Part shown: positions 1,949 to 45,507 of the stretch, in pieces
How positions within the stretch are numbered: position 1 is the stretch's first letter
Layout of the letters: each line of letters starts with the position of its first letter
Assembly: GCA_025435555.1 (NCBI GenBank)
Contig: JAIWWG010000024.1
Location: 248,001-312,000, forward strand
Direction of reading: 5' to 3'
DNA from: Chytriomyces cf. hyalinus JEL632
Lineage: Eukaryota; Chytridiomycota; Chytridiomycetes; Chytridiales; Chytriomycetaceae
Length of the DNA stretch: 64,000 bases
Program-made: the position numbers and the translations under genes
The notes under the pieces: model-generated
What the model was told of the DNA's origin: nothing
Seen by the model: only the letters and a program-made list of their open reading frames with translations
Databases searched by the model: none

Positions 1949-4273
1949 CCACAGTTCTCAGCCTTGGACTTTGCGAGCATACTCGTGCGCTGGTGATGGC
2001 ACTGGCAATGCTCTCGTTGGGATTGTCCGATGCCACATTGACGCGGATGTGTCAGCAGTCAGTGAAATAACCCGACAAAACCGCGCGCACAAACCCCCTT
2101 GTCTCAACAGCGACACATCCCCTTGCTCCAATGTCCTCCAAACGATCCTCCTCGCCCGCCGCCTCGTGATGGCCTTGTTTATACAAAATTGGAAAATTCC
2201 CAAAGCGCCAAGTCAAAAACCCCCGCATTTGGGTCCCGGTATTTGAACACAAAACAAACAGAAAACCCAATTCTTACCACTTTGACAGGCAGAATGCAGT
2301 GCAGCGACTCGTCTCATGTGCCACGCGATACGTACACGGATCGATATCTCTTGAACACTCTCATGACTCTGCGGACTGAGGTACCAATGTCAACCGTCAA
2401 CCGAATACAGCACGCTAACCGTCGCATGAACACCTACCCCATTCTTGTGAGTTATGAATCCAGGCATGGCTGCAGCTGTTGGTCTTCCAGTATTCGAACG
2501 GCTGAAACGGCGCTTTGTGAATAACGATCGAAATCTCTCCGCGAACACGAAGCCAGAAACTGCCGGATAATTTACTCCTCCACGCGCAAACTCACGCGAA
2601 ATATTCGACCATTCCTCAGATCAAGTGTTCGGACAAAGGCAAAGCCTGGCAACGTTGCAACCATCTATTGTATTTTCCTCATCCTTCACGCGACAAATGG
2701 AAGCGCTCACCGGAATTCTCCGCAAACTCCTCACTCCAACATCTTCCCTCTCCGTCGAGGAGTAAACAAAACACCGCTCGCCACGAAATTCGGATCCACC
2801 TCAGGCCAGTGCCGAAGCGCGACTGGGATTATTGCGGCCTTATTCCAAACGATATGTCCAGCCTTTTGCATCCCCTTCAACATGAGTTCGTTCAAAATGT
2901 CCGCATCGCCAGCGAAATGGAGCCTTCGCGCCTTGTTGACACTGTTTGCCAGAAAATCAAGCGCATCCCTCCCGCGGCAGGCCCAATACCATTTGAAACT
3001 CGCTGAGACGGCAAAGTGGAGTAGAGAAGCTGCATCGGTTCCGTTGTATGCTGCATATCCGGGGTTGAGTTTTGAACCTCCGAATGGTTTCGGCGATGCT
3101 GGCTGAAACATGATTCCGGCAGTGGCATAGATGAGCCGGTTTGGAGACACCTTGGTATGCGAAAAGAAGGAAAAAATGGCTGAAGAGGACTCATGCAGTA
3201 TGGATGACTGGCTGATTTCAGGAGAGGGCGAGTTGAAAACCGCGACAACAAGGTTATTCGAAGACGCATCGATTGCCAAAACAAGCGAACTTTGAGCGCT
3301 GCCATATAGCATGATTCGGTCTGCTCGAAGGGCGGGTTGTTTCGATGGCCGGGTTGCATCTGTTGCGAAGGCTGAGGTTAGCATCAACAGACACCACGTT
3401 GGCGGACCGCTGCCAAGTGACTGTCCACCATCAAAGAAGTAAGGCCGATCAGAAGCGCTGATCCAGTGCTGCTTACCGCGTTTAGGGTCTTTGTCTGCCG
3501 CCATGGTGCAGATCTGTGTTGGCAAGCAAAGCCGGTCTCGGATATCCCCCGGGGTGAATATCCAAACTATGTCTTCCTTCTCCTGTTTCCAACTTAGGCT
3601 CTCGATCTGAGCAGGTTCCCTCGGTTCGCTTGAAATCGGCAATTTTATTGTCGAAAGCCATTCGACGCCGTCTCATGAAAGGCTTCTGCAGCTGGCTCAT
3701 TCCTCCTGCTTCTTCTCTCTATCAATACCATGGTTCGCGTTTGATGCGCCTGGTTTCTGGTTGCATGTGGGGTTGCAGATGCTTCCAAATCCGTTGCTGA
3801 ATAGTCACCTGCCACACCTGGAAAGTTTCACGGACTCGGGCCCTCAAGGCCCGGCCACCACCATTTGCCACGTTCAGCAATGTTCAGGATAGCAGTACAC
3901 ATGTCATGGATGAGCATTTGTGTCATGAATGTGGTGAAGTTTACCAAGCCAGCAGTACGCAATTGGGAAACCTGGTTTTCTCTTTCACGTGTGCACCTTT
4001 ATCTCATCAGGACTTGTGTGGAGCTGCTGGGAACTGCAACCAAAAGGTGCGACACAAAAGAAGCATGCCTTTGAAATGTCACCTGTCAGTTGACCTCCAG
4101 TCAAACATCACCTAAAGAAGAGAACAGCATGGCTTTCTCAAGATGTTATGAAGCATGCTCCAATAAAGATTTGTATACACTATCCTTTCTCAAATGACAA
4201 TTGCAACTGAGTTTGTATATTGCACAGGCTGCTGACAACTGACGTTGAAATTCATCCATGTTGCCAATCAAAT
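1949..4273 (+). repeat. IR1 left arm, 2325-bp inverted repeat
   Basis: This arm is the reverse complement of 14477-16801. Paired positions always sum to 18750, so there is no insertion or deletion between the arms. By eye I found two mismatches (2068/16682 and 4244/14506). Similarity stops abruptly at both ends. The arm holds one complete 257-aa ORF and about 770 bp inside it with only small ORFs. No terminal CA/TG ends or target-site duplication are evident, so this is not an LTR pair. Confidence 0.93.
2731..3504 (-). CDS. Unrecognised 257-aa protein, copy A (in IR1)
   Basis: The reading frame is open well upstream of 3504, but the first ATG is at 3504 in a strong CACCATGG context, giving 257 aa. 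The product is soluble in appearance, moderately rich in Ala, Ser and Pro, with basic ends (ADKDPKRGK near the start, TPRRRGKMLE at the end). I recognise no catalytic motif, signal peptide or repeat. The frame is intact and translates identically to the copy at 15246-16019, so either both genes function or the duplication is very recent. An upstream exon cannot be excluded because the frame stays open to about 3645. Transcription runs away from the retroelement spacer. Confidence 0.6.
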   Translation of the reverse strand: MAADKDPKRGKQHWISASDRPYFFDGGQSLGSGPPTWCLLMLTSAFATDATRPSKQPALRADRIMLYGSAQSSLVLAIDASSNNLVVAVFNSPSPEISQSSILHESSSAIFSFFSHTKVSPNRLIYATAGIMFQPASPKPFGGSKLNPGYAAYNGTDAASLLHFAVSASFKWYWACRGRDALDFLANSVNKARRLHFAGDADILNELMLKGMQKAGHIVWNKAAIIPVALRHWPEVDPNFVASGVLFTPRRRGKMLE

Positions 4274-4310
4274 GAGCCATTCTGCTCCAACCCCCAAAGG
4301 AAGGGCTGCC

Positions 4311-6135
4311 CTACATGGTACATCCTGAACAAGGGTTCCTCCACAAGGGAGAAATGTTAAATCCACATCCTCCACCGGTAGCCATCCCAAGGAATGACCT
4401 CAACTCTGACACATTCTGACAACAGTCCCACTTCAAGATTGCATCCACTTTTGAGGGGTTCACAGAACAACCCTCCTGGGACAACACAACACCCAGTGTC
4501 AATACCTGGAGTACAAAGAACTCATTCTTTGACCCATGGATTGTCAGCCCTGAGTCCAATAGCTTCTGCAACATCTGCTCAACTGCTGACATATGCTCAA
4601 CCACAAAATCACACACTCCCAAATACTCCTCTGACTCCTTAAACTTGCCCGTTTTCCTGTCAAAATGATTAGGTCATCAATAACATGTGGAATGGTATGA
4701 ATCCAAACTTGCTAGAATTTCTCCTCTTTCAAGCATCCTTGTTCATTCAAATCAAACGCAAAGGCACCATCATAAGTACAAATCCTCAATTTCGCAAACT
4801 TAATCTTGGTGCCAGTCAAGAACCCCGGAAACGTGTGACAACAAGTGAACAATGCCTCCAGTTGCTCATCTGTTAAGCAAACTGGTGGTGGAGAAACCTT
4901 GACCCCAAGAGAATCCCCTTGCCATTCATCTGGTTTAACCCCTCCTGGCAACGAGGTAGCAACAGATCAAAACTTGTCTGTCACTTGCTTTACTTTGGTA
5001 AAAACCCTCAAATCAATGCAAAGTGGTGGGTTGCTGGACTCCACACAATCTTTGCCATATTGAAGTGGCATTGCAACACCAACAACAAGCTCTCCCTCAG
5101 TTAACTCAAACTGACTCATCATGTCCAGCTCCTTCCTATCCTGAAGGAAAGGAGGCTGCTACAAACTGGTAGGATAAGGAATCACCCTGTATCTCCCCAG
5201 CTGCACTCTCACTTCATCATCCTTACCAGAGTCCCTGGATGAGGACTCAGTTTCAGTAGTTGTCTCAAACCCATTGAATGATCCCTCATCTGAATCAGAG
5301 TACAAATACTCATCTTCAAAAAGACCCTGGACAGCACATCTAAGGTGAAGGCTCTCAAGACTTTCCTCCTCAGAGTCAAATCCCAAAGAGTTTTCAGAGA
5401 GTCTGGCAGTGCATCTCAAACATTCAGTTGATCCCATGCTCAACTTGATGGTGCCACATCTCAAACATGAGTGAAATCTGTCCTCTGAAACAACATCAGA
5501 TTCAACATCTCCAAACACTGAATCGTCATCGTACATCAGATGGGAAACATCAACTTTCAGACTGCTGAGGCAAATGTTCAGGATGACAGGAACACGATCT
5601 GAGGCTGAGAAGTCATGCGCATGGTGAATTGACAGTGCAATTGGATCCAACCCCAGAATCATGTCATAATGCATTCACCCTTGGATGAATATCTATGGAC
5701 TCCACTGCCACCTTGAAGTCTCTGCCCAGCTAAACACTGAGTCCCTCCTTCCTCAGGCACATCACTGGATACCCAATGCTGCATGAAAACAGCACTTGTA
5801 AGGTTCTCATTTGTGTTTTCCCCACCTCACAAATGGACAGTGGACACTTATGAAGACCTGGTGTCCAAAGTGAATCTCCAAAAATCTCCCTTCCATATCT
5901 TCCAGATTCCATCCCTTGAAGCACCAGTTCACCAAATTTGGTTCCCTGATAAACTAGTACTTGTCAAGCTAAATGGATATGCCATTATGCACTTCATCCA
6001 TTGTGGATCCCATTTCAAAAACTGAGACAAACACATTGAACTTTTGTGCAAATTGATGCATCTCCAAGAAAGGCATGGCAAAAACATGTGCATAGGACAA
6101 CTTCCCAAGCTTATCTCCCTGTCCAAAGACAATTT
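4311..6135 (-). mobile_element. Decayed Ty3/gypsy-like pol fragment (left copy)
   Basis: Reading the minus strand, pieces of a Ty3-type polyprotein appear in order but in shifting frames. A block containing DKLG and AHVF lies near 6130-5940. A possible retropepsin end, HYDMILGLDPI, is near 5674-5640, followed by an acidic, Cys-rich linker with repeated CLRC motifs. At about 4680-4650 is a reverse-transcriptase box HVIDDLIILT, then the thumb region at 4622-4311 with LGVVLSQEG and ELRSFLGMA, which are hallmarks of Ty3 elements. Stop codons and frameshifts make it inactive, and much of the RT fingers/palm is missing. No LTR was found. It is related to the plus-strand fragment at 11430-13005. Confidence 0.75.
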
Positions 6136-6518
6136 CTGCTTTCAAAAGTTGCGCAAGTTATAGTCTAGACAATTTATTGCAAAAATTTCGAACTGAGTTG
6201 AAATTAACAAACCACATGTCAACAGTGTAATCCTGTTGTGGATCCTGGTTAAGGTGGACCAGTGGTCTCCTCATGTAGTACTAAGCCAAACTACCTGCAA
6301 CACACCAGTACATAGCTTGTGTAGTTGAAACAAAGGTTTGAGCCTGGATAGGCATCACTTGAGGACCTAGATCTTGCATAAGCATAGTTTGAAGTTAGTA
6401 CACCATAGTCAAACTGACACGCTAAATTGTACATGGCCAGCAGACAGTGCTGCTTACTGGTACACTGTCACTTGGACCCACCGCTTCCTACCCAGGTGGG
6501 AGAGGCCCTGTCAGAGGT

Positions 6519-6586
6519 CCAAGGATACAGTCATATGCACTTTGGACATTGGTTGGATAGTTTCTTATTCAAATCGTAACTTTTAG
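6519..6586 (+). repeat. Short dispersed repeat, copy 1 (at LINE junction)
   Basis: About 65 bases containing CACTTTGGACATT match 14067-14134 in the same orientation at roughly 70% by eye. The match stops where the reverse-transcriptase frame begins, so it probably marks the target into which a 5'-truncated LINE inserted. Confidence 0.5.
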
Positions 6587-8342
6587 GAGTCTGCAATTGC
6601 TGGACTCCCACTCGGAAAGGCTACTGGATCCAATGGAATTCCTGCTGAACTCATTAAAGCCGGTGGCGATCTCATGGCTGACGTTCTCAGTGTGTTTCTG
6701 CCCATGGTCCATGCTGCTGCAACCATTCCATCTGATTGGAGGAAGGCACTCATTGTGCCGGTCTTCAAGAAGAAGGGATCTGATCAGGACATTGCAAATT
6801 ACCAGCCCATTGCGTTGACGTGTACAATCCAGCGACTCTACGAGCGGCTGCTTGTTCCTGAACTTGGACCTGTGATGCAACAACTCGACGATTTCCAAGG
6901 TGGCTTCAGACCCGGGCGGTCCTTGCTTGATCAAGCCATGGTTCTGCATGAAACTCTGAACACCAACGAACATGCATCCACCATTCTGCTGGACATCAAA
7001 GCGGCATATGACAAAGTTGATCAATGGGTTCTTTGGGAAATGCTCACCCAAGTCTTTGGTCTGGACGAATTCATGCTGGCGCAGCTCCAGGATCTTTTCA
7101 ATCACAACTCGTGCTGTCTGGTGGTGGCTGGCATGATTAGTGATCCAATTGCCAACGAACAGAGTCTTCTGCAGGGTGCGACTCTGTCACCGATTCTGTT
7201 CAACTGTCACATCCATGGTCTCTCAATTCGGCTACGTGCTCCTGGAATCCCGCGAATTCGAATCAACGGTATCCAGCTCAACAACCTCCTGTTTGCAGAC
7301 GATACCTCTCTGGTGGCCGCGAACCAACACAATCTTGCAGTCCTGCTCCGAACGTGTGAGGAATGGTCAAACACTGTTAGAATTCGGTTCTCGTCATCAA
7401 AGTGCATCTACCTCGGTCCTGCTCCAGCACTGCGTGATGTGCCTCTCAAGCTCTACAACGTGGACCTCCCGTCTCAGCAATGTGCTCCCTACCTCGGTAT
7501 CCCTTTTGGTCAACACGGAATCAACTGGGCCCTACTGGCGAAAGAACAAACATCAAAAGCACGTGGCGTCATTGTGGCGCTGGCGTCAGTTGGTATGAAT
7601 GCAATGGGCTGGGCTCCTGCAGCATCTGTTACTATTTACAGGAGTTTCATTCGGCCGGTCCTCGAGTATGGCATTGCTCTTAAGCTCCCATCTGCGTCCA
7701 CGCTCAAGCTGTACAAGTCAGTCCAACGCCTTGCGCTACGGATTCTCACCTCAACACCCCGCAACACATCCGCTGCCGCACTCCACAAGCTGCTGCAAGT
7801 TGAACCGTTCAAACACCGTGCTACGGAGCTCAATCTCATGTGGTCCTCACGCTTGCATAACTTGACTGATTGCTCCATCCCGGCTGTTCATTTCTGGCGC
7901 GGCGCTCTGCTCAGCGCCGATAAACCATTTCAGGAATGTCTTCCCCATCTTGCTCGCTCCAACCCACTTGTGACTCATGTGGATGCTAAATGGATTGATT
8001 TTCGACAGCAACCACTGGCTTGTCCACCCCCAGCCAAAGTCCCCTTCCGGTCCCCTCCAAAGCCAAAACAAGCGCTGTCTGACAATGCTCGCAAGAAACT
8101 GCGCAAGGAATCCATTGTCAACATGGACAACAACCTGGACACCATCGCTGGCGCGATCCAAGTCGAACTCAAAGACCCAGTCCGGCCATACCTGACTACC
8201 TGCAAGGGAATCGACCGCAAGACACGCAACACCATCCTTCACTGGACTCTTGGTGCTGTTACCTGACGCCAACCGTGCCTCAAGTGCGACAACGTTCTGA
8301 CCCGATCCCATGCTGCTGACTGTTCTGGTGCCACTGCTCTCC
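6587..8342 (+). pseudogene. 5'-truncated LINE reverse transcriptase
   Basis: An open frame from 6587 to 8266 (first ATG 6674) encodes a non-LTR reverse transcriptase. It starts directly inside the RT domain (GKATGSNGIPAELIK) and lacks the endonuclease part. Visible RT blocks are ANYQPIALT, FQGGFRPGRS, LLDIKAAYDKVD, the LLQGATLSPILFN block and the catalytic FADDTSLVA, followed by thumb and C-terminal regions. A TGA at 8264-8266 interrupts the frame. Immediately after it the same frame reads CLKC..TRSHAADC, a LINE-type C-terminal zinc motif, so the stop is probably a point mutation. The RT core is otherwise intact and the insertion looks fairly young. No poly(A) tail or target-site duplication is clear. 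Confidence 0.85.
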
Positions 8343-8345
8343 TGC

Positions 8346-8473
8346 GCGGCTGCAGGATCTCTTTGACCACAACTCATGCTGCCTCATGGTGGCTGGTGTG
8401 ATTAGTGATCCAATTGATAACAAATGGGGTCTACTGCAGGGTGCCACTCTGTCACCAATTCTGTTCAAGGCCC
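8346..8473 (+). mobile_element. Second LINE fragment, duplicate of part of the RT domain
   Basis: These about 128 bases resemble 7081-7208 of the adjacent LINE at roughly 85%: both encode LQDLF.HNSCCL, then AG.ISDPI and LLQGATLSPILF. The fragment is diverged, so it is a second member of the same LINE family or an internal duplication, fused directly behind the zinc motif of the first copy. Confidence 0.8.
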
Positions 8474-8490
8474 ATCTTTCAAAGATGGTC

Positions 8491-9024
8491 TAACAAGAGC
8501 ACAATAACTGGATCAAAGAACAGAAGACACAGGCAAATGCAAAGGACACAGACAATCTTAAAGCTTGGTTGAGGAAGACCTATCAACTTCAAGATTCCAA
8601 GGTCACCATCTCCAACTTACATGCATTGATTGCCTGTGTCACAGCCAGCAGGTACACAAACCTGCTGTTGTTTCAAAGCAAATTCTTGGATATTATTTCA
8701 TGCATGCCTCAAACAGTAAGACCAGATGGACACATGCTGATCAAGCTGTTCCTGCAGGGTTGTTCCCCTGAGGATTGCCACAAGCTTGTGAAATTCTCCC
8801 AGGACAAAAAGAGAATTCCTGTGACTGATTTTGCAGCATTCTTGAAGCATGTTGACACTCAAGACTCACACAATCAAATGTTGAACCAAGTTGCCAGTGG
8901 TTCCATCACTCGTGAGAGCAGATTTCTCTACATGTCTGTTCCACCTGTCAAGCCTGAGTCTGTGATTGTACCCCCTGTTCCAACTCCTCCCGCTGCACCA
9001 GCTGCTATTGACATAGATGACTAG
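8491..9024 (+). pseudogene. Gag/capsid-like fragment of Ty3-like element
   Basis: A frame open from about 8491 to the stop at 9022-9024 encodes a helical, capsid-like region (HNNWIKEQKTQANAKDTDNL, then LLLFQSKFLDII and FLQGCSPEDCHKLVKFSQ), ending in a Pro/Val-rich tail with IDIDD. It is followed by a zinc-knuckle-like segment and polyprotein pieces, which fits the gag part of a retroelement. The N-terminus is lost at the junction with the LINE fragment. Confidence 0.55.
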
Positions 9025-9042
9025 GCTAGGGAGTTTTCGAAG

Positions 9043-9418
9043 TTGAACCTACATTTGAGTCAGGGGAAACCACTGGACAAGTATCAGTTGTCCCAAGTTG
9101 CATCCAAACAGTTCAAATTGTTGTTTCTCACATCTCAAGGACCAGCGATGATTATGCCCAGCCCTGCAAGCACATCCACAGCCAAAGCAGGTGTTACTGT
9201 TGCTAATGACAGTTTTGAAAAGCTTGACATCTCCAAGTCAAAGTGCTTCTTTTGTGCGAAATTGTAGAAGGAAATACCAGAAGGTAATTATCACCTGAGG
9301 TTGGACCACTGCAATCTGCTCAAGGAGTGCATCAAAAAGGGATGGCCCATCACAAAAGACTTGCACGATGCAGAGACCGGTGAGCTTTGGAGAATGAAAG
9401 ATGGAAAGCGCATTTAAG
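9043..9418 (+). pseudogene. Nucleocapsid-like zinc-knuckle region, interrupted by a stop
   Basis: The frame ending at 9267 reads KCFFCAKL, then a TAG, then continues in the same frame through HLRLDHC to a stop near 9418. The CxxC, His and Cys spacing resembles the CCHC knuckle of Ty3 gag proteins. The in-frame TAG makes this a decayed copy. Confidence 0.5.
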
Positions 9419-9962
9419 GTTTGTTGAAATCCCAGGTTGAGTCTGGAAGCACCAGAATATCTTCAGGTAAGGTTTGAGTTGGAGGAGGTGCTGTGTTGGT
9501 TGCATCGGAGGTTGGATCTTGTGTATTCCATCTAGTGGTCTTGGACGAATTGGATGTTCAGTATCTTGATGTTGGCAAGGGAGAGTTTTGAATGGTGACT
9601 GAAGTCATGGGAGTCTTGGTTGGTGAAGTAGTCTCAGAGTTTGAAGCATGGGATGCATGGGCTCTGCTTGGAGGTGTGGATGGTCAGGATTTGCCAAATG
9701 TGCCTTTTGAAATGATCAGTGACATCATGATTGTGCAAAGGGCAGATGGTAAGGCAAAGAGGATGCATAAGGTGGAGGGAATGTTAGAAAGTAAGTGACT
9801 ACCCCAAAGCAGTGCCAGCTACCCTCAATCCCCTTCCCTGAACTCTGACCCTGTGCCGCTGCCAAGAGCCCCAGGTCTGAAAACTACCCTCAAGTCATCT
9901 CGCCCAGTCCCTGTCCTGAGCCAACTGCACCTAAGCCTGCTCCAGCCCTGCTAAAGCCTGCT

Positions 9963-10900
9963 GTGCCTCCAAAGCCAGCTGCAAAGTACCAGTATAAGAA
10001 GAGCTTGGAAATGGCATTGATTGACCTTGACAAAAGAATGGTCAAAATCCTCAGCAACACAGAGGTCAAGCTGTCGGCTCTGGACCTTATTGCATTCAGT
10101 GCAGCTTTTCGAAAAAAGGTGAATGAGATCTCTAAGACTCACTGCATTTCAGTCAACAAGGCAATGGACATCAAAAATGCCACTGCTGGCAAGTCTGGAG
10201 CAGTTGGTTTCCTCCAGTCTGCTCTACCTGTTTCCATTGGATCCTTTGCAGAGGATGGGTCTGCAGAAAATCAGCTGTTGATGCAAAAGTTGTTCTGCAA
10301 GGGTGACCAGGAATCAATGCTGCCATCTGCAGTTGCTGGGTTGCTTCGGTACAATGCTGAACACGTTGTAGGTCATGAAATTCTGATCAAGGTAGATGCT
10401 TCAGAGGAGTCTTTGGTGTACTGAAATCTTGGAGATAAACCTGCTGGAACAATTACCATGCCTACCGAGCCTCCAGCAACGTTGAATGGGATCCCTTGAC
10501 TCAGTACAGCACTCATGGTTCTCTGTATGTTTGTGGCGTTGTGTTTCAGGAAATGTTCAAGGTTGATCACATGCTGTTGACCCTTGCAGATGATGCCAAA
10601 GCCAGTTCCTGTATCAATTGTGACGTGCAGATGACGATGTTCAATATGGCTGAAGGAAGTAGTTGCATGTTCGGCATGTTGCATGACTGCAAGCAATGCT
10701 TTCCTGGACCTATCCGTCTGCTCCAGAAGGTGTTCATTGCCCCAAAGAGGGAAAAGACACCATTTGCTTCGCTTCTGGGAATGCCTGCAATTGCAAGTCT
10801 TTGTGTGAGAGAGGTTTTCGATTCTCAAGGCAATATCTGGCACAAGTTGACAGCTCCTGACCATTCCTGCTCAATTCACCTGCTCACTTGTCCAATTTAA
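9963..10900 (+). pseudogene. Ty3-like gag-pol interior, frameshifted
   Basis: Two successive open pieces (9963-10424 and 10496-10900, different frames) follow the knuckle. The first contains EMALIDLDKRMVKILSN and SALDLIAFSAAFRKKV, similar in style to the segment before the protease in fungal Ty3 polyproteins. The second may cover the protease region (TPFASLLGMP), but that reading is tentative. Neither is a complete domain. Confidence 0.4.
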
Positions 10901-11429
10901 AGCAGAGCAATGTGTTGGAGCCTGGAATTCTGAGACCCAAGGTTGACAGCGATGACGTTGAGGAGGTCAAGACATGGACAGAAATGCTGCAGGGGCAGTG
11001 CTGATTGTCTCCTTTTTATTCTTTTTTTAGGATTGGATGCATTTGTCTGTCACAGCTTTTTCATTTTTTTATGTTAGTGAATATATTGTTTGACAGCAGT
11101 CATATTGGTCTGAGCACAGTCTGCAAGCAACGCAATAACAGCTGAAGCAATCACCCTATTGTGACATATCACTGTTGGTTCCCATCATCTGTATTCACAC
11201 TTGGCTGTATTCATCTTGCTGAAGAGCAACAATCTGTCTGACAGCATTTCTGGTTGACATATCAAGGATTGCTTCAAATCTGTCAAACTGGATGCATACC
11301 TTCCCCATGTTAGTTGTACACTCACACCTGTCGGACTCAATGGATTATCATGCTGTGCTGGTGCCAGTTGATCACTCCATTGAGGTGCGGTCAATCAATT
11401 TCAATTCTGTTCGAAACTTTTGTAATAAA

Positions 11430-13005
11430 GCATTGCACAATCAGCTGTGGTGTCTTTCCAATGCTTCCATTGTATTTGGTCATGAAGACAAGCTGGGGCA
11501 TTCATCTTGTGCTCATGTCTTTGCTGCCTCATTTATGGTCAAACATCAATTTTCCCAAAAATTCAACATATTTGTGTCCTGTTTTGAATCTGAGTCTTCA
11601 TTGGATGAAGCTCGCAACAGTGTATCTGTATGGTTGGATAAACATAGATTCCATCATTCGGATTTTTAGGGGGGTGGTCTCTGGTTGAAATGGAAGGTCA
11701 TTTTATTGAGGTTTGATACAGTTTCCAGGTTTTCATCAGTGTCTATTGTCCATTTGCTAGTTGTGGCAAGCACAAGTGCAAGCGCTACAAGTGAAAAGCC
11801 ACTCGTGTGATGTTTTTGAAACATGCTGGTTTTGGGAGGAGACTTAAACATGGCAGCAGAGTCCACGGATATTCATTCCAAGGTTATACCTATGATATCC
11901 TCAGGGTTTCAAGAGGCTGACAGGGTTCTGATGCAGACTCTTCTTTGTTACCTCTATGATTTTTGGCAAGAGGAGCATCCAGACTCTGCTGAGTTCACCA
12001 CTTGGTTCTACTTGGATCATTGTTGTAACAAGGGTATGCACTACAATCTGATTCTTGGAGCAGAGCCAGTCCCAGCATCCACTTATTATGAACATGATTT
12101 CATAGCATTTGATCATGCACCAGTCATCACCATGATCCATCTGTGTGACCTATCAATGGATTTTTCATATTTGTTGTATGATGGACACTCTCAGTTTGGA
12201 GACAGTGAATCAGATTCCATCTCTGAGTTGGGGTCTCATGCATGTTTAAGATGCAGCATCAACAACTTGGCTGGAGGGCCCACCTTGCATTTGGAATGCA
12301 CAGCTGATTGTTCAGACACATCCAACCCAGGGTTTCAAGAATGTTTAAGATGTAGTACCAACAATTACCTAAAGGATCCAAGGAGTGCATGGGATGCTTA
12401 GCAAACCTCTCTGATGAGTCTGATGGGAGCAAGTTATTCAACAAAATCGAGAGTTTGGGACACTTGCAACTGGAGTCTGAGACACAAGCAGTTGAAGGCT
12501 TTTTGAAGCAAGCATAGACAGTTCTGATAATGATTCCAGTAGCAACTTGTATAATGGGTTTGAAACCATCACAAATACTGAGTCTTCATCCAGTGACTCT
12601 GGTGTTGATGATGAAAAGTTAAGTGGAAACACATCTGATGACAAAGGGGTGATTCCGCAGTCTATCAGTTTGTGCCAGCCTCCTCCTTCCTTCAGGATGG
12701 GACAGAACTTCATTTGACAAGTTGGTTTGAGTAAACTGAGGGAGAGGCTGTTGTCAGTATAGCAGTGCCTTTATTGAACATTGTAAATGAGGATGAACTC
12801 AATGTTTCATACTCTGAATTGGGACAGGAAGGAGAAGATTGGGTGGAGTCTGTTTACCCACCATATCTTACTGATTCAGAGGTCTTCACTAAAGCAAAAC
12901 AAGTTGCTGACAAGGTTCATCCTGTTGCAACTTTGATGCCAGGAGGGTCAAACCTGATGAATGGCAAGGGGATCTCTCAGCAGAAGAGGTTTTCCACCAC
13001 CAGCA
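11430..13005 (+). mobile_element. Ty3-like linker fragment (right copy), homologous to left copy
   Basis: This plus-strand stretch is the diverged counterpart of the minus-strand element at 4890-6135. Shared blocks are DKLG..AHVF, a long open frame at 11823-12401 with HYNLILGAEPVP and CLRC motifs, and DNA around 12725-13005 matching 5104-4890 in reverse. Homology ends near 13005, before any RT motif, so this copy carries gag to linker while the left copy carries linker to RT. Stops and frameshifts are frequent. It appears to continue the gag fragment that begins at 8491. Confidence 0.65.
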
Positions 13006-13094
13006 GTAGAAACATGTGTGAAGTAACGACTGTTATTCACAGGGTTTATTTATCTGTCAGAGCAGGGTTGTTGGTTTTATTTCTTTCTTTTTAG

Positions 13095-13560
13095 TTTTCA
13101 TTATTGGGCGTTGTTATTTTCTTTTGCTGGCAAGAGATCGCCAGGTGACAATCCAATAAACTTAGAAGTACGCTGAATTCAACTGTCTGGGGAGGGTGGC
13201 TCTGAACTGGACACGACACAAATCGGATCCTGTCAAAGTACAAATCTGCGATGCGCTCCTTGGGGAGGAAGCAAGCGTGTCGTAGTCTCGGGGGTAGGCG
13301 GGGTGCCACTTCACAGGCTTCACAGTCACACATGAAAGCATCCTGAACAGTTCCCCTTGGCGTGAGGGGCGGCGTTAATTGTCAGCATCCAAAGGTGGGA
13401 GGCCATTTGTCACCACTGGAGGTCATGTGAGTTCTTTATTCGCGGTATAGAGATCTTGGAGGTGTTGTGCTGCTTTTCCTGTTTGTTATGAACAGAAGCT
13501 ATCCCATTTACGTCCCCTGTGGTGTAGCAGGCAGGACAAGGGTACTATGACACTATTAGC
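13095..13560. other. No supported gene
   Basis: This stretch between the end of Ty3-like homology and the orphan ORF contains only short ORFs without recognisable motifs. I see no RNA gene in it. Confidence 0.4.
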
Positions 13561-13581
13561 GGACGAATACTTATCGGTGGA

Positions 13582-13818
13582 ATGGTACCAGGAAGAATAG
13601 TACTGACTATTGGGGGAAACCAATTCACAGTCATGCCCGAGTTGAAGACACGAGGTGCTATGGTTGATATCCTACAATGCGAAGCCATTGGGAGTCCACA
13701 GTCAATCGTCGAGGCAACGGAAGACAGTATTCAACCAAACTGCGCTGTGCTGGGAATTGACCAGTTCTCGAAAGGCGGTGCACGACAAAGCATAGAGTGC
13801 ATTGTCGTAAAATCATAG
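13582..13818 (+). CDS. Orphan 78-aa ORF, beta-rich
   Basis: The ATG at 13582 opens a 78-aa frame. The same frame is open back to a TAG at about 13529, so it could be an internal or last exon. The product looks beta-rich (GRIVLTIGGNQFTVMPEL, VLGIDQF) with no recognised family. It sits between retroelement debris and IR1. Codon use looks more gene-like than the flanking sequence, but this is weak evidence. It may be a remnant of a host gene or an unknown element protein. Confidence 0.3.
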   Translation: MVPGRIVLTIGGNQFTVMPELKTRGAMVDILQCEAIGSPQSIVEATEDSIQPNCAVLGIDQFSKGGARQSIECIVVKS

Positions 13819-14066
13819 TGGCGAGTGATGGCTTTTATTCACGTTGTTTGATTCACCTGTTGTTTGTTCTGTTTGTTTTGTCAAAATCATAGACAACCAT
13901 CTCTTTGACTCAATCTCCCCGACGAATACCACCCATTCCTCAGATGTTCCTCAGGGACCTTGGACCACCCTGAGTGCTCAGACGTTTCTCCCATCCAAAC
14001 CAGACTCCCTTCGAATCTAAGCGCTAGGCTCGAAGACGGATTCCTGACACATGGTATAACTTCAAG

Positions 14067-14134
14067 GATACCATCATATTCACTTTGGACATTAGTTGGA
14101 GAGTTTCTGAAGGGATTCATAACTTTGAGAATCA
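14067..14134 (+). repeat. Short dispersed repeat, copy 2
   Basis: Roughly 70% similar to 6519-6586 in the same orientation (shared CACTTTGGACATTAG/GTTGG core). It lies 340 bp inside the inner edge of the IR1 right arm and is not next to any LINE sequence, so it may represent the uninterrupted form. Confidence 0.45.
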
Positions 14135-14476
14135 TAAATGCCAAACAGTCCTTGGAGACATTTTGGGGACTTCCTCTGTGAAAAAATAGAAAAACATGGA
14201 GGGACCCAGTTTTTCTGCCCCAAGAGTGCTTCTGTCTTCTTTTTCCTTCTTTCTGCAAAATCCGGGTATAAATGGTAAATCTGCCATAGGCAAATAAAAA
14301 CAATCTTCTTAAGACCAAAACTATCACTGTAGCACACTGTCCACAAGTTATAAACAGTTGTACCATGTGTCACCAATGATACCGATACAGTGTGAGCATA
14401 TGCAGTCAGCTTGAGTAGATTTGAAGCATCTTCCTCCACACCATTGCAGACAATGGTCACTTGGCATGGTCTAATT

Positions 14477-16801
14477 ATTTGATTGGCAACATGGATGAAT
14501 TTCAATGTCAGTTGTCAGCAGCCTGTGCAATATACAAACTCAGTTGCAATTGTCATTTGAGAAAGGATAGTGTATACAAATCTTTATTGGAGCATGCTTC
14601 ATAACATCTTGAGAAAGCCATGCTGTTCTCTTCTTTAGGTGATGTTTGACTGGAGGTCAACTGACAGGTGACATTTCAAAGGCATGCTTCTTTTGTGTCG
14701 CACCTTTTGGTTGCAGTTCCCAGCAGCTCCACACAAGTCCTGATGAGATAAAGGTGCACACGTGAAAGAGAAAACCAGGTTTCCCAATTGCGTACTGCTG
14801 GCTTGGTAAACTTCACCACATTCATGACACAAATGCTCATCCATGACATGTGTACTGCTATCCTGAACATTGCTGAACGTGGCAAATGGTGGTGGCCGGG
14901 CCTTGAGGGCCCGAGTCCGTGAAACTTTCCAGGTGTGGCAGGTGACTATTCAGCAACGGATTTGGAAGCATCTGCAACCCCACATGCAACCAGAAACCAG
15001 GCGCATCAAACGCGAACCATGGTATTGATAGAGAGAAGAAGCAGGAGGAATGAGCCAGCTGCAGAAGCCTTTCATGAGACGGCGTCGAATGGCTTTCGAC
15101 AATAAAATTGCCGATTTCAAGCGAACCGAGGGAACCTGCTCAGATCGAGAGCCTAAGTTGGAAACAGGAGAAGGAAGACATAGTTTGGATATTCACCCCG
15201 GGGGATATCCGAGACCGGCTTTGCTTGCCAACACAGATCTGCACCATGGCGGCAGACAAAGACCCTAAACGCGGTAAGCAGCACTGGATCAGCGCTTCTG
15301 ATCGGCCTTACTTCTTTGATGGTGGACAGTCACTTGGCAGCGGTCCGCCAACGTGGTGTCTGTTGATGCTAACCTCAGCCTTCGCAACAGATGCAACCCG
15401 GCCATCGAAACAACCCGCCCTTCGAGCAGACCGAATCATGCTATATGGCAGCGCTCAAAGTTCGCTTGTTTTGGCAATCGATGCGTCTTCGAATAACCTT
15501 GTTGTCGCGGTTTTCAACTCGCCCTCTCCTGAAATCAGCCAGTCATCCATACTGCATGAGTCCTCTTCAGCCATTTTTTCCTTCTTTTCGCATACCAAGG
15601 TGTCTCCAAACCGGCTCATCTATGCCACTGCCGGAATCATGTTTCAGCCAGCATCGCCGAAACCATTCGGAGGTTCAAAACTCAACCCCGGATATGCAGC
15701 ATACAACGGAACCGATGCAGCTTCTCTACTCCACTTTGCCGTCTCAGCGAGTTTCAAATGGTATTGGGCCTGCCGCGGGAGGGATGCGCTTGATTTTCTG
15801 GCAAACAGTGTCAACAAGGCGCGAAGGCTCCATTTCGCTGGCGATGCGGACATTTTGAACGAACTCATGTTGAAGGGGATGCAAAAGGCTGGACATATCG
15901 TTTGGAATAAGGCCGCAATAATCCCAGTCGCGCTTCGGCACTGGCCTGAGGTGGATCCGAATTTCGTGGCGAGCGGTGTTTTGTTTACTCCTCGACGGAG
16001 AGGGAAGATGTTGGAGTGAGGAGTTTGCGGAGAATTCCGGTGAGCGCTTCCATTTGTCGCGTGAAGGATGAGGAAAATACAATAGATGGTTGCAACGTTG
16101 CCAGGCTTTGCCTTTGTCCGAACACTTGATCTGAGGAATGGTCGAATATTTCGCGTGAGTTTGCGCGTGGAGGAGTAAATTATCCGGCAGTTTCTGGCTT
16201 CGTGTTCGCGGAGAGATTTCGATCGTTATTCACAAAGCGCCGTTTCAGCCGTTCGAATACTGGAAGACCAACAGCTGCAGCCATGCCTGGATTCATAACT
16301 CACAAGAATGGGGTAGGTGTTCATGCGACGGTTAGCGTGCTGTATTCGGTTGACGGTTGACATTGGTACCTCAGTCCGCAGAGTCATGAGAGTGTTCAAG
16401 AGATATCGATCCGTGTACGTATCGCGTGGCACATGAGACGAGTCGCTGCACTGCATTCTGCCTGTCAAAGTGGTAAGAATTGGGTTTTCTGTTTGTTTTG
16501 TGTTCAAATACCGGGACCCAAATGCGGGGGTTTTTGACTTGGCGCTTTGGGAATTTTCCAATTTTGTATAAACAAGGCCATCACGAGGCGGCGGGCGAGG
16601 AGGATCGTTTGGAGGACATTGGAGCAAGGGGATGTGTCGCTGTTGAGACAAGGGGGTTTGTGCGCGCGGTTTTGTCGGGTTTTTTCACTGACTGCTGACA
16701 CATCCGCGTCAATGTGGCATCGGACAATCCCAACGAGAGCATTGCCAGTGCCATCACCAGCGCACGAGTATGCTCGCAAAGTCCAAGGCTGAGAACTGTG
16801 G
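14477..16801 (-). repeat. IR1 right arm, 2325-bp inverted repeat
   Basis: Reverse complement of 1949-4273 without gaps and with two mismatches seen. Outside 16801 the sequence is unrelated to that outside 1949, and inside 14477 it is unrelated to that inside 4273. The two arms enclose 10,203 bp of retroelement-rich DNA. Such arms can recombine and invert the spacer. Confidence 0.93.
15246..16019 (+). CDS. Unrecognised 257-aa protein, copy B (in IR1)
   Basis: This is the intact partner of 2731-3504, with the same ATG context and identical translation. I recognise no domain. The two copies are transcribed outward, away from the retroelement spacer. Identity over the whole coding region and its flanks points to a very recent duplication or to ongoing gene conversion. 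Confidence 0.6.
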   Translation: MAADKDPKRGKQHWISASDRPYFFDGGQSLGSGPPTWCLLMLTSAFATDATRPSKQPALRADRIMLYGSAQSSLVLAIDASSNNLVVAVFNSPSPEISQSSILHESSSAIFSFFSHTKVSPNRLIYATAGIMFQPASPKPFGGSKLNPGYAAYNGTDAASLLHFAVSASFKWYWACRGRDALDFLANSVNKARRLHFAGDADILNELMLKGMQKAGHIVWNKAAIIPVALRHWPEVDPNFVASGVLFTPRRRGKMLE

Positions 16802-28775: not shown

Positions 28776-29127
28776 ATGAAAAGAAGAAAAATATAGATAA
28801 TTTGATCTCACGTATATTGCAACCAACCTTTGGTGCTGGTCTTGATCTGAAAGTGACTCCTCGTCATCAAAGGGCAGAACCACATTGAGACGCATGAATA
28901 GCAATCCTCAGCCAGCATGTGAACCTTTCGCCTCTGTCACTTTTTTGTTTTTGAGTGAGCGGAGGGAACGTGGTGTGCCAAGTCCGCCAATAAATCCAAC
29001 GGACAATGTTTTGACACCCACGTCGCAACCCACGCAGCACCAAACATGCCATATAAAATGAGCGCCGCTGCATCATCACCACCACTAGAAACAAAACTCA
29101 CACGCACACACTCAATATACACAAAAC

Positions 29128-30292
29128 ATGCAAAGACTTGCAAGTGCTCAACTGATGCAAGCCGCGTCATTCAGGCTTCTCCACGCACAACGGCGCGTCC
29201 CCGCCGCGCTTTTGACCAGCCGCTCCATAGGCATCTTGAACATCCCTACAAGCAAGATCCCCAACACACCAATCCCGCGAAGGCAATACTCCTCATCCTC
29301 CTCCGACTACTCCGACATGCCAACAAACGTGGGCCGCGGAATCAACCGCCAAACCCCACCATGGAACACGATCGTCATGTTTGTTCCGCAAGCGTCCGTA
29401 TACATTGTCGAGCGATTCGGCAAGTTCCACACGCAGCTTGAACCAGGGTTGGCGATCCTGGTCCCGATCATTGACCAGGTCAAGTATGTACAGTCGTTCA
29501 AGGAGACGGCGGTTGAGATTGTGCCGCAGAATGCAATCACGCAGGATAATGTGACCATCAAGATCGACGGTGTGCTGTATTACCGCATTGTGGATGCAAT
29601 GAAGGCGTCGTATGGAGTGGATGACCCAGAGTTTGCAGTGACGCAGCTTGCGCAGACGACCATGGTAGGAAGATAGATAACGTTTAATCGAGACTTGTTT
29701 TCTGACCTGTATCCGTTCACAGCGAAGCGAGATTGGACAGCTGTCGCTGGACCGGACACTGGCCGAACGCACTCTTCTAAACCACAACATCACACGCGCC
29801 ATGAACATGGCAGCCAAAGACTGGGGAATCGAGTGTCTCCGATACGAGATCCGCGATGTGCATCCACCAGCAAACGTGCTCGAATCAATGCACCGCCAAA
29901 TCAGCGCCGAGCGCCAAAAGCGCGCAGATATTCTCGAGTCCGAGGGAGCGCGGCAGGCCGCAATCAACAATGCCGAGGGTCAAAAGCAGGCAATGATCTT
30001 GCGCTCGGAGGCTGAGATGCAGACTCAGATGAACGCGGCCAATGGTGATGCTGCGGCCATTCGTATGCGTGCAGTGGCAGCGGCTGAGGCCATTGACAAG
30101 ATTGCCAAGGCCATTGCTGAGAATGGGGACACTGGCAAAGACGCCGTGTCGCTGAGTGTTGCGGAAAAGTACGTTGACGCGTTCGGAAAGATTGCCAAGG
30201 AGTCCACCACAGTTGTGATTCCCTCAAACTTTGCTGACGTGTCAAGCATGGCCACACAGCTGCTCTCTGTCATGAAGACGGTCAGCAAGTGA
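29128..30292 (+). CDS. Mitochondrial stomatin-like protein 2 (SLP-2), copy 1
   Basis: Two exons (29128-29664, 29723-30292) give 368 aa. The first 60 residues are an Arg/Ser-rich mitochondrial presequence. The band-7/SPFH domain follows (from about 75: IVMFVPQASVYIVERFGKF, VEIVPQNAITQDNVTIKIDG, then YEIRDVHPPANV after the intron). A long Ala/Glu/Gln-rich coiled coil follows (SAERQKRADILESEGARQA), ending in the SLP-2-like C-terminal region (STTVVIPSN). SLP-2 scaffolds cardiolipin-rich domains and proteases on the mitochondrial inner membrane. Length and order fit the family. It differs from copy 2 by Ala12 to Thr only. Confidence 0.92.
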
Positions 30293-30349
30293 TCCTGTAC
30301 TGCACTGTATTCGCACATGTTATTGCACTGACATTTGGAAGAAAGGCCT

Positions 30350-30355
30350 AATAAA
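30350..30355 (+). terminator. Poly(A) signal AATAAA of SLP-2 copy 1
   Basis: AATAAA 58 bases after the stop codon, inside the IR2 arm and duplicated at 37639-37644 in the other arm. Confidence 0.55.
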
Positions 30356-30436
30356 GACGCGTTGAAATCATGGAATCATGCATTTGGAATCAAGTCACGG
30401 ACACTTGGAACCAATTCACGCAAAAGAATATTTTAT

Positions 30437-36407: not shown

Positions 36408-37253
36408 ATGACTGACAGAACCCACCATCCCGACGGTTCCATCAACTACGAAGCCTCTCCTTATGGCGAGCAACCCCGACTCATTCTCGCCCAAATAGCA
36501 GCTGGTGTTTTCGTACTGCTGTTCCTCGTCCACCTTGGCCAGGCCATCCGCTTCAAGACACGCTACATGGGTGCAGCCATTGCAGGTTGTTTGATGGAAG
36601 CGATTGGATATACCAGTCGATGCATCAGTATCGACAACCCCTTTCAAATCGCCACATATGCTTCACAGCATGGGTTGATTGTCATCAGTCCAGTTCTCGT
36701 GGCTGCCACACAGTACGTCATGCTTGAGAAGGTCATCCACCACAGTTACCCCGAGGCTTCCCCCGTCAAGCACACGCTCATTACAAAGGTGTTTGTAATT
36801 GGAGACGTGATTGCGTTCTTTGTGCAAATTGCTGGCTCGGGGATGCTGCTGAGCGACCCCAAAAACGCGGACTTGGGAATCAAGGTCTTGATGGCGGGTC
36901 TGGTTGTGCAAGTCATCAGTTTCGCACTGTACCTGAGCATTGCCACATTGTTTTACCTTCGCGCTATGAACCTGGTTGGCCACGCAAGCGCCGGGCTCGT
37001 TGACGACAACGCGTGGCGCACCGTGTTTGCTGCTTTGATGGTGTCTGGTGGTTTCGTGTTTCTCCGCAGCGTGTTCCGTATTGTCGAGTTTTCGTATGGA
37101 TTCCGAGGATTCATTGCCACGAACGAGATTTACTTGTACGTGTTTGACTTTGCGCTGATGGCGTTGGCGTTGCTTGCGTTCAATGTGTACCACCCGGGAA
37201 AGTACCTGCGCGCCAGAGTCACTGCCGAGTACAGGACCATGTCTTCCTCGTGA
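36408..37253 (+). CDS. RTA1-like membrane protein, second of a tandem pair
   Basis: Single exon, 281 aa, seven hydrophobic segments, clearly paralogous to the gene just upstream. Long blocks are shared, such as VLVAATQYVMLEKV.HHSYPE and FSYGFRGFIATNE. The key RTA1 motifs (EAIGYTSR, DVIAFFVQIAGSGML, FLRSVFRIVEF) are intact. The tandem arrangement, 298 bp apart and on one strand, suggests local duplication followed by divergence. Substrate unknown. Confidence 0.9.
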   Translation: MTDRTHHPDGSINYEASPYGEQPRLILAQIAAGVFVLLFLVHLGQAIRFKTRYMGAAIAGCLMEAIGYTSRCISIDNPFQIATYASQHGLIVISPVLVAATQYVMLEKVIHHSYPEASPVKHTLITKVFVIGDVIAFFVQIAGSGMLLSDPKNADLGIKVLMAGLVVQVISFALYLSIATLFYLRAMNLVGHASAGLVDDNAWRTVFAALMVSGGFVFLRSVFRIVEFSYGFRGFIATNEIYLYVFDFALMALALLAFNVYHPGKYLRARVTAEYRTMSSS

Positions 37254-37610: not shown

Positions 37611-39056
37611 ATGCATGATTCCATGATTTTAACGCGTCTTTATTAGGCCTTCCAAATGTCAGTGCAATAACATGTGCGAATACAGTGCAGTACAGGATCA
37701 CTTGCTGACCGTCTTCATGACAGAGAGCAGCTGTGTGGCCATGCTTGACACGTCAGCAAAGTTTGAGGGAATCACAACTGTGGTGGACTCCTTGGCAATC
37801 TTTCCGAACGCGTCAACGTACTTTTCCGCAACACTCAGCGACACGGCGTCTTTGCCAGTGTCCCCATTCTCAGCAATGGCCTTGGCAATCTTGTCAATGG
37901 CCTCAGCCGCTGCCACTGCACGCATACGAATGGCCGCAGCATCACCATTGGCCGCGTTCATCTGAGTCTGCATCTCAGCCTCCGAGCGCAAGATCATTGC
38001 CTGCTTTTGACCCTCGGCATTGTTGATTGCGGCCTGCCGCGCTCCCTCGGACTCGAGAATATCTGCGCGCTTTTGGCGCTCGGCGCTGATTTGGCGGTGC
38101 ATTGATTCGAGCACGTTTGCTGGTGGATGCACATCGCGGATCTCGTATCGGAGACACTCGATTCCCCAGTCTTTGGCTGCCATGTTCATGGCGCGTGTGA
38201 TGTTGTGGTTTAGAAGAGTGCGTTCGGCCAGTGTCCGGTCCAGCGACAGCTGTCCAATCTCGCTTCGCTGTGAACGGATACAGGTCAGAAAACAAGTCTC
38301 GATTAAACGTTATCTATCTTCCTACCATGGTCGTCTGCGCAAGCTGCGTCACTGCAAACTCTGGGTCATCCACTCCATACGACGCCTTCATTGCATCCAC
38401 AATGCGGTAATACAGCACACCGTCGATCTTGATGGTCACATTATCCTGCGTGATTGCATTCTGCGGCACAATCTCAACCGCCGTCTCCTTGAACGACTGT
38501 ACATACTTGACCTGGTCAATGATCGGGACCAGGATCGCCAACCCTGGTTCAAGCTGCGTGTGGAACTTGCCGAATCGCTCGACAATGTATACGGACGCTT
38601 GCGGAACAAACATGACGATCGTGTTCCATGGTGGGGTTTGGCGGTTGATTCCGCGGCCCACGTTTGTTGGCATGTCGGAGTAGTCGGAGGAGGATGAGGA
38701 GTATTGCCTTCGCGGGATTGGTGTGTTGGGGATCTTGCTTGTAGGGATGTTCAAGATGCCTATGGAGCGGCTGGTCAAGAGCGCGGCGGGGACGCGCCGT
38801 TGTGCATGGAGAAGCCTGAATGACGCGGTTTGCATCAGTTGAGCACTTGCAAGTCTTTGCATGTTTTGTGTATATTGAGTGTGTGCGTGTGAGTTTTGTT
38901 TCTAGTGGTGGTGATGATGCAGCGGCGCTCATTTTATATGGCATGTTTGGTGCTGCGTGGGTTGCGACGTGGGTGTCAAAACATTGTTCGTTGGATTTAT
39001 TGGCGGACTTGGCTTTTTTTTATTGGGCAACCACGTTTCCCACTCCGCTCACTCAA
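37611..39056 (-). repeat. IR2 right arm (about 1.45 kb inverted repeat)
   Basis: Reverse complement of 28951-30383 with a net 17-base insertion (T-rich on this strand, near 39013-39030) and a 4-base deletion. The two arms enclose 7,227 bp with five genes. Confidence 0.92.
37698..38862 (-). CDS. Mitochondrial stomatin-like protein 2 (SLP-2), copy 2
   Basis: Exons 38862-38326 and 38267-37698 mirror copy 1 and give 368 aa. All features of copy 1 are kept: presequence, SPFH domain, coiled coil, intron position and sequence. Only residue 12 differs (Thr instead of Ala), the other exon differences being silent. The two genes converge toward the spacer. Complete retention of coding potential suggests both are expressed, or that the duplication is very recent. 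Confidence 0.92.
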
Positions 39057-43033: not shown

Positions 43034-43966
43034 TCACAACAAAGTCCGTTGCCGCTCAATCCCCTCAGGCCTGCCTGGAAAAGTCGTATTCTTGCCGCGC
43101 TTAGGTCGAGTAATCGTCACGTTCAAACTCCCGTGACTAGGCAATTTCCCCGCCGTCAGCAACACAGACTGCAGCATGGACTTCTTCTCAAGCCTTTCGC
43201 CGAGGCTTTCATCGAACATAAGATCAAAGTTCACGGCCCGTGCCAAAACATAAGACTGAAACGCGTAAGCGAACCCAAGCCAAAACTGATTCACCCAGTT
43301 CACACCAGTATACACGGCAAATACGCTGGTTCCTACAATAACGATGCTACGGAGTAAGTTTCGCTGAATCAGTGCAAGAGAAATGTTCGATGTTCTTCCC
43401 AACCGCACTGCAGCGACAACAACATTCACCAGCGTCGCGAAGCAATCTGATACGATATCCCCTATACTGTAGTAGGCAGACATTGGATTCTGAATGTACT
43501 CGCAGAAGGGTATGTCTTCGTTAAAGGAGCCGTAACTTTCGTAGATATCGTACACCGCCCAGCCGAGCCTGTGCAGAACGATAATGACACTAATGTTCCT
43601 GACCCAGACGTGACGATTGGAGATTGTGTAGGCACAAAAAAGTATGTATATATCCGTGCTGAGAAAGACAAGATGCGATGAAACATTGCAGATGCGAGCC
43701 ATTGTCGCACAGGTGACTTGGTCATAGAATATAAAGAGGGAGGTGAGATTGTAGGTAATGTTTGCGCCGTTGTTGATGAGAAGCAGAAGCGGGACAAAGT
43801 ATTCGCCCCATTTGCGTTTGGGGAGGCCAATGCTTTTACGTGTGTAAAGCATGGCAAGTGCATTGCTGCAATTTTCAACCACAAGTCCAAACATGGCTGC
43901 CAGCAGAAATAGCTCAACCTGGTTGATATCGCCGGGATCGTCGGGGCTGTGGATCACGAAAGGCAT
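43034..43966 (-). CDS. Seven-transmembrane protein, paralogue 1
   Basis: Single exon, 310 aa, with about seven hydrophobic helices after a short acidic N-terminus (MPFVIHSPDDPGDINQVE). The loops and a basic C-terminal tail (LNVTITRPKRGKNTTF) fit a GPCR-like topology, but I recognise no named receptor family. Distinct conserved blocks shared with the neighbour are MARICNVSSH, LHRLGWA.YDIYESYG and YTGVNWVNQFWLG. The tandem arrangement in one orientation indicates local duplication. Confidence 0.75.
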   Translation of the reverse strand: MPFVIHSPDDPGDINQVELFLLAAMFGLVVENCSNALAMLYTRKSIGLPKRKWGEYFVPLLLLINNGANITYNLTSLFIFYDQVTCATMARICNVSSHLVFLSTDIYILFCAYTISNRHVWVRNISVIIVLHRLGWAVYDIYESYGSFNEDIPFCEYIQNPMSAYYSIGDIVSDCFATLVNVVVAAVRLGRTSNISLALIQRNLLRSIVIVGTSVFAVYTGVNWVNQFWLGFAYAFQSYVLARAVNFDLMFDESLGERLEKKSMLQSVLLTAGKLPSHGSLNVTITRPKRGKNTTFPGRPEGIERQRTLL

Positions 43967-44233
43967 TCGCCGCTTCTTAACTTGTTAGATCAAGGGATTT
44001 ACGGCGCGTCTTGTTTTGCAAATCAAATAAACCTTCCGTGCTTCCTCACATCAAAATCCAGAACTTAACCGTTAGCAGCCTAACCCAGAGAGAAAGAAGG
44101 GCACAAGAACGAAATGCAAGCAGGTTGCCAGGTGGCAGTCGTTAATCTGGGAAATCTTATAATTGAAGTGGCAGTTCCTCGCACAACTCAACCAACTTTC
44201 AAAGAAAACAGAAGATGCATCTCGCATTTGAAA

Positions 44234-45268: not shown

Positions 45269-45507
45269 CCGTGCATCAAATGGCGGCTGTTTATTTTCTT
45301 GTGATCAAGGGATTTTCAGATTAAGAGTTCGGCGGTGTAAAATCTTTAAACTGCGCCATCTCTTCGTATCATGCGGGCTCCTGCCATCACGATTCATATA
45401 TACAGGAACAGTGCATGGGACTGCAGCCGCCTATGGAGCAAACGGTGTTCTTGCAGCAACATAAACAGGGAACTTTGGATATCTATGTTTCCATGACTTG
45501 TATTCTT

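Follow-up and report, generated by a model that had tools for sequence, protein, structure and literature searches.

The inverted repeat IR1, which lies in a 64,000-nucleotide window of contig C156 (C156:248001-312000), was interpreted as a divergent gene pair that arose by inverted duplication and has been held near-identical by gene conversion from arm to arm, an interpretation rated a little better than even. The genome to which the window belongs comprises 37,782,357 bases, spread over 242 contigs that are labelled C with a number. The main evidence comes from the comparison of the arms with the spacer between them, from other members of the gene family that the arms carry, and from a neighbouring inverted repeat, IR2. 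The coordinates of all features are collected in Table 1.

Arms, gene and spacer of IR1

The two arms are reverse complements of each other at 99.914% identity over 2325 bp, without gaps and with a constant position sum of 18750, exactly as an earlier note on this DNA had described. They differ at two sites, 2068/16682 and 4244/14506. On both the outer and the inner sides the match stops sharply, and a match this long cannot be due to chance. IR1 consists of two long, near-identical inverted arms around a spacer that is not itself repeated. When the arm was searched as DNA against the genome, 15 matches were obtained, two of them full length; the remaining 13 were each 250-470 bp long at 66-73% identity and lay in or around the coding core. 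No third full copy of the arm was found by this search of the 37.8-Mb genome. The right outer flank was found in the genome at its own place only. When an empty site was sought, neither the outer flanks nor the left inner flank matched anything in the rest of the window or in the loci compared, from which the 12 loci that represent the window's own places were left out.

Both arms carry the same 257-aa open reading frame (ORF), uninterrupted in each, which agrees with the intact gene reported earlier. A genome search with the protein gave 35 matches, namely the two arms and 33 rows for about 31 further places, with clusters on shared contigs (C4, C156, C211, C184, C40, C221, C134, C200 and C111). 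An alignment, A1, was made from the window protein and 11 of 18 other family loci (L011-L028); those dropped were L011, L013, L015, L019, L025 and L026, each with an internal stop, and L028, a fragment. The family is well conserved, with 53 invariant columns among the 12 members of A1. Between the arm gene and the 11 paralogs, the proportion of nonsynonymous differences (pN) was 0.24-0.39 and that of synonymous differences (pS) 0.60-0.84, from which the arm gene looks to be under constraint. None of the 12 members of A1 matched a Pfam family, no PDB entry resembled the 257-aa protein significantly (best E 0.18), and it had no relatives in plasmid records or viral contigs, the collections searched not including genomes of other fungi. 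A single-sequence structure prediction gave a mean predicted local distance difference test score (pLDDT) of 32 and no usable fold.

As had been claimed, divergence is much greater in the material enclosed by the arms than between the arms. It includes a fragment of a long interspersed nuclear element (LINE) that differs by 4.4% from its copy on C46; the copies on C21, C46 and C212 match it at 95.6-95.9%, and LINEs in tandem arrays at about 90.5%. The earlier description of the spacer as 10 kb of retroelements is borne out for only part of it. The LINE fragment contains the one clear reverse transcriptase ORF (RVT_1, E 1.1e-22), and most of the stretch from 8.5 to 11.1 kb has no assignment. 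Two further spacer ORFs had no Pfam match at E <= 0.001, with one weak match to another family (0.022). They look endonuclease-like, a likeness that Pfam did not confirm.

Within the spacer lies an inner mirrored pair, whose halves are 64.2% identical over 1307 aligned columns, that is, 36% apart. In 20 single-base shuffles the mean identity was 41.7% and the maximum 45.0%. The Jukes-Cantor (JC) distance was 0.49 for the inner pair and 0.0009 for the IR1 arms. Searched as DNA against the genome, the left half matched elsewhere just the right half, and the right half matched the left half and a relative at C26:23055-24410, which is rearranged, with pieces at 81-95%. A protein search found the element of the inner pair at three genome places in total. 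The probability that two of three randomly placed copies would lie inverted within 10 kb was crudely estimated at 8e-4, a figure that ignores transposon nesting. If the inner pair is a remnant of the same inverted duplication, the arms would be expected to stand at about JC 0.49, not 0.0009, and conversion would be needed; if it represents two pieces of a rare retroelement, it carries no information on the arms.

Signs of conversion in the gene family and in IR2

Identity profiles were drawn for the family groups on C4, C156:131-134 kb, C211 and C184, the groups on C40, C134, C221, C200 and C111 not being profiled. Pairs of loci above 80% identity or 700 bp were listed from DNA comparison, and those with synonymous divergence (dS) below 1.2 from coding comparison. 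C4 holds a tandem pair (L012 and L018), as does C156:131-134 kb (L015 and L017). Alignments of core plus flank pair L012 with L015 (2455 bp, 79%) and L018 with L017 (1257 bp, 83%), so that by sequence the two tandem pairs look like copies of one array. Core identity was highest within arrays (93.7% over 555 bp and 92.4% over 564 bp), lower between orthologs (90.5 and 89.5%) and lowest for the remaining pairs (87.2 and 88.1%). Outside the core, overlap of the loci aside, the within-array match amounted to one 239-bp stretch at 71% on C4 and none on C156. Among the informative core sites, 28 join same-array genes, 13 join orthologs and none supports the third grouping. In order along the core there are 11 ortholog sites (25-53), 28 within-array sites (71-517) and two ortholog sites (555-558), making three runs; the probability of so few runs by chance is 2.3e-9. 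This three-run mosaic, together with a core that is closer within arrays than between orthologs, marks the core of these four genes, on sequence evidence, as a conversion tract with both ends visible.

Two inverted pairs of the same family were profiled as well. The C211 pair, counted from its inner edge, which is hard like the edges of IR1, is about 100% identical over about 1000 bp and 97-99% for about 400 bp more; farther out it is mostly 86-97% with one stretch at 74%. The members of the C184 pair lie 78 kb from each other; between flanks at about 60-85% they share a block, some 900 bp long, at 93-99%, and the dS of the gene is 0.09. Conversion acting on the gene family of IR1 is shown by the C4/C156, C211 and C184 groups.

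IR2 adjoins IR1 at a distance of 12 kb and occupies two places in the genome, as established with a shorter DNA query; a 10-kb query spanning it missed its own place, and that genome search is incomplete. The central 1127 of its 1407 bp are identical. All six difference events lie outside this centre (p ~4e-4 under uniform placement): the outer 235 bp contain four substitutions, the inner 45 bp a fifth and a 4-bp indel. By eye, diverged likeness continues for about 28 bp beyond the outer edge. Gene conversion is the likeliest reading of IR2 from this distribution of differences.

Explanations for IR1 and comparable systems

For IR1, an inverted duplication would have created a divergent pair of family genes. 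A break or lesion in one arm would be mended from the other, inverted arm, with which it would pair across the 10-kb spacer, either inside the same chromatid or on its sister, and the common 2.3 kb would be rewritten repeatedly. The spacer, without a partner, would gain retroelements and decay. Conversion is fitted by the behaviour of the family, by IR2, by the inner mirrored pair and by the positions of the two mismatches, both of which lie within 120 bp of an arm edge (p 0.012, post hoc, n=2). From these we infer that conversion acts on IR1 itself, and likewise that the age of the inverted repeat can be read from the inner pair; as a sign that the structure is older than the arm divergence implies, the pair is suggestive only. 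Inversion of the spacer between strains is a reasonable expectation, being the predicted outcome of recombination between inverted arms.

Several observations weigh against conversion in IR1. Two mismatches are on their own too few for a test. No diverged homology was found to continue past the edges of IR1, and hard edges without diverged homology outside are what a recent duplication should leave. The conversion blocks on C184, C4, C156 and the outer side of C211 have step-like edges, unlike those of IR1. The right half of the inner pair is nearer to C26 (~81%) than to the left half, and the two halves may be retroelement fragments from one nest, their co-location then being less surprising than 8e-4. 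A stop lies inside the match in 8 of the 35 family rows, including L015 of the four-gene comparison, so not every family member is an intact gene.

The strongest alternative, rated somewhat under even, is that a recent duplication placed an inverted copy of the arm at a distance of 10 kb, within or next to old transposon debris, and that only the two substitutions have accumulated since, with no conversion at all. Such a plain duplication is nearly as likely for IR1, because the edges are hard and there are only two mismatches; the gapless match and the lack of an alignable flank speak for it too, as does a family that duplicates often, with its 31 or so further places and several sharing contigs. 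It leaves the inner mirrored pair as a coincidence or a separate event, and it is set against the conversion seen elsewhere in the family and the clustering of the IR2 differences at the arm ends. The two explanations are compatible: both need an inverted duplication, and its age is the question. The earlier note had offered them as a choice; both are possible, and conversion at the other family loci, with likely conversion in IR2, tips the balance slightly to conversion.

A false duplicate of one arm made by the assembler was considered as well, the repeat having been judged from contig sequence alone. It is very improbable, because the arms differ at two sites, the flanks of each arm are distinct (the right outer flank with its single genome match) and the genome holds other inverted pairs at several divergences. 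Even less credence is given to the arm as a mobile element inserted twice in opposite orientations. Two equal, sharp-ended segments adjoining transposon debris would suit a mobile element, yet just two full copies were found in the genome, the DNA of the other family loci compared matches just in or around the coding core, and no terminal repeats or target duplication were seen by eye at the ends. The features that would mark a transposable element, such as shared ends in several copies, terminal repeats or target-site duplications, were thus not found for the arm.

Among the published systems compared, the closest case is that of the inverted paralogous gene pairs of Caenorhabditis, divergent or convergent and with long near-identical arms (Zhao et al. 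2007, PMC1803023). At the F44E5.4 locus, for example, arms of 2207 bp at 99.7% surround a spacer of 126 bp. That study compared three species, in which the arms stayed alike over long times, and argued for active upkeep, naming gene conversion as one mechanism and also proposing selection for the structure. IR1 resembles these pairs in its paralogous genes, arm length and identity, and differs in its 10.2-kb spacer and in being known from one genome rather than three species.

Mammalian sex-chromosome palindromes, the most familiar example, are reported to undergo arm-to-arm gene conversion, with arms >99% or >99.9% identical and genes inside (PMC3723533, PMC8981503). Near-identical arms carrying genes are common to these and IR1; IR1 has an arm of 2.3 kb and lies on a contig without a known sex link. 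Palindrome arms on mammalian sex chromosomes are mostly far longer than this. Clustered gene families also undergo concerted evolution via interlocus gene conversion, in which similarity within an array exceeds that between orthologs inside the tract. This was seen in the C4 and C156:131-134 kb arrays; IR1, unlike such tracts, is near-identical across the whole arm, well past the gene. IR1 joins the known kind of inverted pair or palindrome as a new member, with a long spacer and a host that is probably an early-diverging fungus. A literature search on fungal inverted repeats brought up no papers, and no comparable inverted pair was met among the listed titles and abstract openings on gene conversion in Chytridiomycota, which cover a minority of the papers and are no claim of absence from print.

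A broader idea, which we regard as unlikely, is that homogenisation favours inverted gene pairs as a class in this probably chytrid genome, overwriting mirrored pairs at distances of kilobases to tens of kilobases so often that they stay near-identical while their spacers decay. In effect, an early-diverging fungus would have a palindrome system on its autosomes, which carries along an expanding, uncharacterised gene family. Near-identical duplicates are commonly taken as young. If conversion does hold the copies alike, duplicate ages here would be badly underestimated and the family copies would evolve in concert. IR1 and IR2, with the C211, C184, C4 and C156 groups, form a ready set for the measurement of conversion tracts, in a genome that probably belongs to an early-diverging fungus.

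Other features of the window and genome

Table 1. Positions of IR1, IR2 and the features inside IR1 (window coordinates)
Feature	Position	Strand	Remarks
IR1 left arm	1949..4273	+	2325 bp; one of two full copies found in the genome
257-aa ORF, left copy	2731..3504	-	Reads outward; belongs to a large family of genes in the genome
IR1 spacer	4274..14476	.	10.2 kb; old debris
Possible reverse transcriptase fragment (weak)	4311..4622	-	RVT_1 E 0.039, under the curated cut-off
Inner mirrored pair, left half, decayed	4882..6232	-	ORF 5159-5674
LINE fragment	6588..8347	+	Open reverse transcriptase ORF 6674-8266
Further piece of the spacer LINE	8343..8468	+	Direct repeat of 7079-7203
Inner mirrored pair, right half	11370..13003	+	ORF 11823-12401
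Spacer stretch	13007..13607	+	72% like places on C202 and C231
Spacer stretch	14120..14375	+	Resembles DNA 3' of LINE copies on C46 and C21
IR1 right arm	14477..16801	-	2325 bp; 2 mismatches to the left arm
257-aa ORF, right copy	15246..16019	+	Reads outward; same protein as the left copy
IR2 left arm	28977..30383	+	Band_7/stomatin-like gene
IR2 right arm	37611..39013	-	99.36% to the left arm; Band_7 gene

The window also holds two genes of RTA1, a mostly fungal family. One of them, at 36440-37213, is matched by an inverted relative at C156:243475-244248 (L049), 41 kb from it, and the pair encloses IR1; its identity is 89% overall and patchy, at 66-98 per 100 columns. Two direct tandem pairs of other window genes run at 53-83% over their aligned length and show no such block as the converted pairs do, a contrast that was weighed in favour of conversion. 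The direct tandem pair at 43037-45304 (77%) encodes probable multi-pass membrane proteins, as judged by eye, and had no Pfam match at E <= 0.001.

Relatives of the spacer LINE (L029-L048; on C238, C94, C92, C89, C78, C76, C68, C5 and others) are arranged in steps of about 5.9 kb, mostly on small contigs. Five units compared on C238 were 99.8-100% alike. At 14 of 20 loci TTAGGG-type repeats come directly after the 3' end of the unit, ...GAAACTGAAAACG, and these often lead into the apparent start of another unit. By their sequence, the arrayed relatives look like telomere-targeted retrotransposons without long terminal repeats (non-LTR). Fungal cases of this kind are MoTeRs (PMC7367193) and FoTeRs (PMC12857005); a chytrid non-LTR element at telomeric TTAGGG was not met in the titles and abstract openings searched.

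Microbial rhodopsin had four matches in the genome, L063-L066 (on C182, C215, C186 and C207). The ORF adjoining the match at L064 looks like a nucleotide cyclase; fusions of rhodopsin and cyclase would hint at a zoosporic fungus, for example a chytrid, as the host, which is a lead only. The match at L064 has two PDB relatives that are named phosphodiesterases and are probably rhodopsin phosphodiesterases.

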